Positions 43,852 through 46,243 of a stretch of DNA of 64,000 nt are shown piece by piece. The DNA is taken from the NCBI GenBank assembly GCA_031263195.1, contig JAISGD010000010.1, positions 96,075 through 160,074 on the forward strand, in the 5' to 3' direction. How positions within the stretch are numbered: position 1 is the stretch's first letter; each line of letters starts with the position of its first letter. The notes beneath the pieces are model-generated. The model was given only the letters and a program-made list of their open reading frames with translations. It ran no database searches and had not been told where the DNA came from. Source of the stretch: Campylobacteraceae bacterium. GTDB lineage: Bacteria > Campylobacterota > Campylobacteria > Campylobacterales > Campylobacteraceae. Made by a program: the position numbers and the translations under genes.

Positions 43852-44027
43852 AAGTCTAAAACTACCAAAACTGCAAATTTTATCGCATAATCAAAGCAAA
43901 GTTTTTATGTAGACCAAGCCTGCACTTCTCCTGCTTTTTGAGTTTTACACCGCAGACATTGCCGTTAATCAGATAAAAGTCCCCCATCATACGAGGGACT
44001 ATATAAGACGTTTTAAACTGATAACTT

Positions 44028-45569
44028 TTAATTTGTCTCCCAGTAGAGTGTAGGATACAAATAACTGCCGTATGCACTCCAAACCCAAGGATTGTCATCG
44101 TCATTTCCAAAAGCCCAGCCTAAACCTTCCGAATAGGTCTCCTGCGTAGCTAATTCCGCCGCTGTTTTACTTGTACCGTGATTTGCCGCATTAGTACCTT
44201 GCGTAAAACTTCCACTCATAGTATCTAATGCAAAATTGTTTGAAACGCCGCCGACATAGCCGCTAACTACACGGTTTTTATAATTATTTCCACTTCCTAT
44301 AACAGATGGATTTACAGCAGCATTTTTTTGAACCGCGGCATTATTTGTATATATTCTACCTACAATACCACCTACATAAGTTGTTCCGTTGACAGTTCCT
44401 AATGAGTAACTGTTTTTAACAGAAGCACTGCTGCTGTAAGTATATCCTGCTATGCCGCCTGTATTTGCCCCGTAGCTGATGACATCGGCATTAGAGTAAC
44501 TGTTCAATACCGAAGATCCGGTACGAACCTGTCCTGCTATGCCACCCACATTGCCGCCAACTCCTCCAACAATTCCTGAAGAGTAGCTATTTTTGATGCT
44601 TGAACCTGCGCCTGTTATATAACCTGCTATACCGCCGACATCAGAATCCAATCCAATGACAATTCCGGTAAAGCAGCTATTTTTGACAATTGAAGCACCT
44701 TCAGCATATCCCACAATACCTCCGACATACTGATCTCCGTTAACGCTTCCTTCAAAGCAGCTATTTGTAATAGTTGAAGTGCCTGCAATCTGCCCAACAA
44801 TACCGCCTGCATAATTGTCTGCCGCGGTAATATTTCCTGTCACATGAACATTTAAGATAGTTGAACCTGTAGCATATCCTGCAACAGCACCGACATGGTT
44901 GTCGTTTCCTCTTATCGCCTTGCCCGCAGGTATTTCAATATTCAAGTTTTCAATATGAGCATTGGTTATATAACTGAAAAGTCCGAAATAGTCGTCACCG
45001 CCTGATGCTATATTGATCCACAAACCGCTGATTGTATGTCCGTTTCCATTAAGCCTGCCGCTGAAGCGATTAGCTGCGTTATTGCCTGCTCCGATTTTCT
45101 GCCAACCATTAGCGTCAAAACCCGCACCATCAGGATCAAGATCAATATCATCTGTCAAAATATATCTGCCGTTTAGACCTGTTCTGATAGCATTTAATCC
45201 CTCTTGGCTAGATATCTCTTTAATACCTGCAACAGTATAAAAGCTGATATCCTGCGTTAAATTATACGCCTCATATTCAAGATTGCCTCTAACAAGCACA
45301 TCGTTTGCCGCATATATAGGACCTGTTAGTCCACCTTCATCTGCAACGGCAGAAATATTAACATTGCCGCTTTGCTTGCTAACCGTATAAGCAACCTCAA
45401 GATCACCATTTAAAAATGAGATTTGATAAAAATGAGTATTAGTAGGATTTGGTGGGGGATTGTCACTACCACCTCCGCTTCCGCAGCCAATCAGTAAAAA
45501 TCCGAACAAGAGAGAGAGAGAGAGTAACTTAAATAAAGTTAAACTTCTGTTACCAAAAAAAATAGACAT
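44028..45569 (-). CDS. GLUG-repeat surface lipoprotein
   Basis: Lipobox LLIGC; tandem GGIVG/GGIAGY repeats with NSYSxG. Confidence 0.88.
   Translation of the reverse strand: MSIFFGNRSLTLFKLLSLSLLFGFLLIGCGSGGGSDNPPPNPTNTHFYQISFLNGDLEVAYTVSKQSGNVNISAVADEGGLTGPIYAANDVLVRGNLEYEAYNLTQDISFYTVAGIKEISSQEGLNAIRTGLNGRYILTDDIDLDPDGAGFDANGWQKIGAGNNAANRFSGRLNGNGHTISGLWINIASGGDDYFGLFSYITNAHIENLNIEIPAGKAIRGNDNHVGAVAGYATGSTILNVHVTGNITAADNYAGGIVGQIAGTSTITNSCFEGSVNGDQYVGGIVGYAEGASIVKNSCFTGIVIGLDSDVGGIAGYITGAGSSIKNSYSSGIVGGVGGNVGGIAGQVRTGSSVLNSYSNADVISYGANTGGIAGYTYSSSASVKNSYSLGTVNGTTYVGGIVGRIYTNNAAVQKNAAVNPSVIGSGNNYKNRVVSGYVGGVSNNFALDTMSGSFTQGTNAANHGTSKTAAELATQETYSEGLGWAFGNDDDNPWVWSAYGSYLYPTLYWETN
45509..45524. 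repeat. (AG)8 / (CT)8 dinucleotide repeat within the GLUG lipoprotein signal sequence
   Basis: Direct count: eight AG units. Confidence 0.97.
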
Positions 45570-45901
45570 TGCTACCCCTTTGAATTTTAGTTCAATTTGC
45601 TAATGCAAATTTGACAGCATTATAGCAAAAGTTTAGTGTAAAATAGTCTTTAACAAATATATTTTTAATATAAATGCCTATTTTTAACATATTTGTTGAC
45701 AATTTTTCTCTTTTATAATGTTAATTCGTAAAAATGATATAGGCAATAAATGAATTAATGAGTATTTTAAATACAAATATAGAATAGTTAAAAAACTTCA
45801 AATCTTGTCGATAAGCATTCATTGGCAAAACAGTGACGGCATACGATTCATAAAAAATGCAAAAACTTCCGTCAATACTATATTGATTGACAAAAAACGA
45901 T

Positions 45902-45992
45902 ACCAATGACGGGATTTAAATATAGATAGGACAAAAACAGTTTACTCCCGCTGAGTAAAAATTCACTTGGCAGTTGTATTGTCGTCATTGGT
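45902..45992. repeat. Nested inverted repeats in intergenic region
   Basis: Outer ACCAATGACG/CGTCATTGGT; inner TTTACTC-CCGCT-GAGTAAA. Confidence 0.8.
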
Positions 45993-46243
45993 TAAAACGA
46001 TAGCAGCGTCTCATTAACGCAGACAATCTTTTCGTTAGTTAGTTCTTTATCGCTTCGAGAGTAAATAAAATAACTCCGTTTCCTTTTAGCAAGAAGTTGC
46101 AAAAGCTGCCGTATAGCAAAATAAGCAATACTATTATTGTTTGAAATAATAGAATATATTGGGATACAAAAATAACAAAAGACTTCCTGAATACCGATAG
46201 TAATCTGCAAATATTTTAAATCTAAAATACTAAAGACGGCAGG

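Follow-up and report, generated by a model that had tools for sequence, protein, structure and literature searches.

Does the CT repeat in the signal-peptide codons of a GLUG-repeat lipoprotein gene act as an on/off switch? This question is raised by a gene in a stretch of 64,000 nucleotides from a Campylobacteraceae bacterium, the whole of which is called here the window. In the hop genes of Helicobacter pylori and the opa genes of Neisseria, switching of this kind is generally attributed to slipped-strand mispairing (PMC10564699, PMC3960876, PMC3960869). The H. pylori genes oipA/hopH, hopZ, and babA carry CT repeats in the 5' coding region, and those of oipA lie in the signal-peptide codons (PMC10564699, PMC3960876). 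Our analysis indicates, with a probability of about 0.85, that the window gene is a contingency locus turned on and off by CT slippage, and that it belongs to a genus-wide set of similar leaders which are attached to different bodies and independently switched.

The CT tract precedes the lipobox of a GLUG-repeat lipoprotein

The window gene lies on the minus strand at 44028-45569 and encodes an open reading frame of 513 aa, which is in frame (ON) in this assembly. It starts with ATG at 45569, followed by TCT ATT TTT TTT GGT, and its leader continues with the codons AAG TTA CTC TCT CTC TCT CTC TTG TTC GGA TTT TTA CTG ATT GGC TGC. As the first-pass annotation had described, these signal-peptide codons hold a perfect (CT)8 tract (45509-45524, minus strand), the proposed switch, ahead of the lipobox LLIGC. 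The tract begins 45 nt from the first base of the start codon and is directly followed by codons for LFGFLLIGC, which include the lipobox. By translation, the lipobox comprises residues 25-29 (45483-45497, minus strand). Its Cys29, encoded at 45483-45485, was unchanged in 12 aligned relatives. The protein thus has the signal peptide and the Cys-terminated lipobox of a bacterial lipoprotein, and it is probably exposed on the cell surface. A likely ribosome-binding site, AAGGGG, lies five bases upstream of the ATG (45575-45580, minus strand) and resembles those of the other leaders of the set. A TATAAT picked by eye at 45619-45624 on the same strand may be a -10 promoter element. The T8 tract directly 3' of the start codon (45555-45562, minus strand), to which the same annotation had drawn attention, is real but not notable in DNA as rich in A+T as this. 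The window contains 29 A/T runs of at least 8, and this one lies outside the leader common to the paralogs. It is probably background, and a second switch at this position was ruled out on that frequency.

The Pfam Glug model (PF07581) matched the protein in five stretches at 55.8 bits, above its curated cut-off of 20.5, which makes it a GLUG-repeat protein. The Glug match and the predicted strands place the repeat region at approximately 44220-44900 on the minus strand. The AF2 model had a mean pLDDT of 87.7 and abundant short, regular beta strands. Its best PDB matches were a putative IgA1 protease of B. ovatus (3n6z) and other IgA1 proteases, at low TM-scores of 0.3-0.4 that indicate likeness of the local fold only. 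GLUG repeats above the Pfam cut-off are a feature that the window protein has in common with M26 IgA1 proteases and Bacteroides GLUG proteins (PDB 3n6z). Unlike the M26 proteases, it had no peptidase domain detectable by Pfam scan in its 513 aa, and the M26 N-terminal model reached 18.3 bits, below the cut-off of 27.7. Identity as an M26 IgA1 protease was rejected on these two grounds. Membership of the Helicobacter Hop family was also rejected, as the Pfam scan returned only Glug and the weak M26 N-terminal match. Since no peptidase domain was found, a binding or display role seems likeliest, and the lipoprotein may be adhesin-like or antigenic.

CT arrays exceed the chance expectation, and a one-unit change shifts the reading frame

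The claim that a change of one repeat unit puts the rest of the gene out of frame was borne out by translation. Gain or loss of one CT unit led to a stop 10 or 18 codons past the start of the array. The chance expectation was calculated with a first-order Markov model of the window, scaled to the 1.79 Mb genome, and arrays were counted genome-wide by pattern searches and reading of the loci. The model predicts 0.12 CT arrays of at least 12 nt and 0.0003 of at least 16 nt per genome, and the numbers observed were 11 and 10, respectively. A pattern search of the genome found (AC)6 0 times. The (CT)8 of the window gene is therefore a perfect coding repeat beyond chance, with a unit that is not a multiple of three.

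Six of the 11 arrays lie in lipoprotein leaders, three of them in frame (ON) and three out of frame (OFF). Subject to possible miscounting of repeats in draft assemblies, the tract was 16 nt in the window gene (ON), 19 nt on contig C2 at 38 kb (OFF), 23 nt on C27 at 116 kb (OFF), 25 nt at the C10 contig end (OFF), 27 nt at the C13 contig end (ON), and 21 nt at the C30 contig start (ON). None of the other five is as short as the window tract, which may therefore switch less often. Four further arrays are intergenic. Three of these precede other lipoprotein genes at a distance of 209-280 nt, and for the one on C1 a search of 600 nt found no candidate gene. The remaining array lies inside a TetR-like gene. 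The MutS_I mismatch-recognition domain was not detected in this genome and was present in 11 of 14 control genomes; its absence would favour unstable repeats.

Related genomes carry a mixture of ON and OFF genes

The survey applied two boundary patterns to 14 congeneric genomes and added loci from a protein search. It yielded 35 lipoprotein genes with a CT array of 12-31 nt downstream of the start codon and ahead of the lipobox, nearly all of them from this genus; one (L071) came from another family of the order. Frame calls were limited to the 33 genes with an ATG and a Shine-Dalgarno-like sequence. Nine of these were ON and 24 OFF, which fits one third (p 0.58) and is consistent with random slippage, where one third would be expected. 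In most OFF genes the body was still a long open frame of up to 628 codons. T-start arrays occurred in 9 of 10 congeners versus 7 of 71 genomes from the other genera of the family, so the arrays are concentrated in this genus. One congener (G001) had 54 GLUG matches genome-wide, including a long series of GLUG genes over ~16 kb of one contig (C46).

The window gene is accessory. It occupies a variable insertion site (43852-46243) that has a YbeY-like gene on one side and the rpoD cluster on the other; this site is empty in G003, has no GLUG gene in G008, and holds a different GLUG gene beside YbeY in G001. Because a same-site comparison in relatives was therefore impossible, tract lengths were compared at a sister locus. 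The genes on G007:C106 and G008:C17, from two species, are syntenic orthologs with flanks ~80% identical. Their tracts are uninterrupted and measure 17 nt (OFF) and 25 nt (ON), so that related copies, intact in both the ON and the OFF form, differ in repeat number. The bodies showed a dN of 0.19 and a dS of 0.36 over 404 codons (dN/dS ~0.5). A fixed repeat number or an interrupted tract would have spoken against the proposal of slipped-strand switching in the first-pass annotation, and neither was seen at this locus. Together with the 35 genes, the 9 of 33 in frame, and the long OFF bodies, this difference between orthologs supports the proposal at the level of comparative sequence.

Similar leaders are attached to unrelated bodies

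Bodies of the GLUG and RCC1-repeat types, an Ig-like body, and a body with a Listeria-Bacteroides repeat stand behind the leader MLSSMTNFKALSLFKFKAFSLSLS... and its relatives, as do several bodies without any Pfam match. The layout consists of a ribosome-binding site, a short N-terminus often containing FKFKAF, (CT)n, a hydrophobic stretch, and the lipobox. Some leaders lack a long CT array. One of these, on C3, has only TCTCTCTC, and four belong to a C24 cluster of tandem lipoprotein genes with a similar leader and no CT array (L168, G000:C24:74000-80000). Such copies show that the leader can do without the tract, and that export does not require it. What goes beyond the earlier annotation is that the switch sits in a leader common to unrelated bodies, and that other surface genes carry similar arrays. 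A phage-borne leader was considered and set aside, because IMG/VR gave no exact match for one leader-plus-array pattern.

In the mechanism that we propose, the CT tract in the signal-peptide codons would lengthen or shorten in whole units through slipped-strand mispairing. The full GLUG lipoprotein would be made in one of the three frames, and the other two would stop within ~20 codons of the tract start. Similar leaders attached to many different bodies would each be switched independently, so that cells would differ in the lipoproteins that they display. Such random flipping probably lets one population show many surfaces.

In two assemblies, contigs end precisely at the array, which suggests that leaders and bodies may also recombine. 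The C10 and C13 contig ends are identical over exactly 119 nt (94 of leader and 25 of array), and the bodies beyond have no blastp similarity to each other. The same 94-nt leader occurs in the 61-kb contig C30, where the body starts as it does in C27; the first 118 nt of C30 are common to both. In G008, contigs C5 and C14 have exactly 119 nt of body and array in common, with tracts of 25 and 23 nt, and their leaders diverge further upstream. At a site flanked by a metallo-hydrolase-like gene, the body that follows the leader is 211 residues long in G007 and of the GLUG type in G008. In our interpretation, a de Bruijn assembler whose k-mer was close to 119 would have cut the contigs at such points, where one leader joins several bodies or vice versa. 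A strain mixture or recent duplication could give the same pattern, so recombination between leader and body, in addition to on/off switching, is suggested only. In a fuller reading, the CT leader would serve as a recombination handle as well as an on/off switch, and within a population the same leader could stand before alternative, unrelated bodies. We put this forward tentatively, at somewhat less than even odds. If it is true, both the display and the identity of the protein would vary, through a genus-wide module that works across folds.

Alternative explanations for the arrays

The leader and array might instead serve as a recombination site, with gene conversion or rearrangement as the main source of variation and CT slippage as a secondary one. 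The observations just described fit this explanation: the 119 nt common to C10 and C13, whose 94-nt leader recurs in C30 with a third body start; the G008 contigs with 119 nt of body and array in common behind different leaders; and the syntenic site where G007 and G008 have similar leaders and different bodies. However, the overlaps at contig ends could also reflect strain mixture or recent duplicates, and the sister-locus pair in G007 and G008 altered its tract length while retaining its body. Slippage and recombination are also compatible and may operate together. We regard recombination as the main source as unlikely, and slippage as the leading reading.

The CT tract could also be a by-product, arising because the hydrophobic signal peptide is rich in Leu and Ser, with a length that is fixed in life. 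It does encode LSLSL of the hydrophobic segment, and the window gene is in frame. But CTC is rare, at 5.7% of leucine codons, so that LSLSL written wholly in CTC and TCT (p ~7e-6) does not follow codon habit. Array-free leaders are written in mixed codons, the lengths range from 12 to 31 nt, and arrays are kept in out-of-frame genes, where coding is not read through; a by-product is thus very improbable. It is improbable, too, that the out-of-frame copies are decaying pseudogenes rather than genes in a switched-off state. Such copies make up roughly three quarters of the total, and the OFF paralog on C2 at 38 kb, which has a second frame break, may indeed be a pseudogene. Nevertheless, OFF bodies are mostly otherwise intact, the ON/OFF proportion fits random thirds, and the OFF/ON ortholog pair has the dN/dS of ~0.5 given above. 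Sequencing or assembly errors in tract length, and hence in the ON/OFF calls, would be conceivable in draft assemblies, some contigs of which end at arrays. Yet the window tract lies well within a 184-kb contig, the existence and recurrence of the arrays are independent of exact counts, and errors would not restrict arrays to one genus. We therefore consider this explanation the most improbable of all.

Comparison with known phase-variable systems

Like the H. pylori hop genes, which probably belong to the same phylum, the window gene would combine a CT repeat in the 5' coding region with ON/OFF frameshifting of a surface protein. The products differ, being lipoproteins with GLUG, RCC1, or Ig-like bodies here and Hop outer-membrane proteins there, and here similar switch leaders serve unrelated bodies. 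The opa genes of Neisseria carry CTCTT repeats in the leader and undergo antigenic variation by recombination (PMC3960869). By analogy, the present genes would resemble opa as a multi-gene set with the repeat in leader-peptide codons and independent switching. They differ from opa in the CT unit, in bodies that are not alleles of one family, and in encoding lipoproteins rather than Opa porin-like proteins, and recombination is only suggested here. Our literature search found no paper linking GLUG with phase variation, and nothing of this type on phase-variable lipoproteins with RCC1 or dinucleotide repeats. What is new relative to hop and opa is the lipoprotein class, the switch leaders common to different folds, and the genus-wide scale.

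On this reading, repeat-driven phase variation would reach beyond the Hop proteins of H. pylori to a large repertoire of lipoproteins in an uncharacterised genus related to Campylobacter and Helicobacter. With GLUG, RCC1, Ig-like, and unknown bodies under similar leaders, the switch would act as a portable part and not as a feature of one family. The ON/OFF state of surface genes could be predicted from sequence, and the genus could serve as a system for measuring the interplay between repeat slippage and leader-body recombination.

Arrays at other genes

Dinucleotide arrays were also seen outside lipoprotein leaders in the survey. In a TetR-like gene, an AG array coding for (ER)n is conserved across four species, with a length of 16 or 19 nt (L046, L122, L123, L137). 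As this difference of 3 nt keeps the frame, the array is probably not a switch. At L005, L083, L084, L074, L098, L110, L140, and L141, intergenic (AG)n arrays precede other lipoprotein genes by 190-370 nt. A conserved motif like CTTAA-N6/7-CTTAA usually follows these upstream arrays, which are possibly promoter-type repeat switches. In three congener loci (L118, L120, and L129, from G013, G002, and G013), (AG)n stands right behind the ATG, before a signal-peptide-like sequence and a TonB-receptor-like ORF. This ORF was apparently out of frame in 3 of 3 and is a candidate phase-variable surface gene. At L096, L128, L098, L103, L132, L133, and L138, the intergenic (AG)n adjoins TGATANNNNTATCA-like palindromes that appear to resemble Fur boxes.
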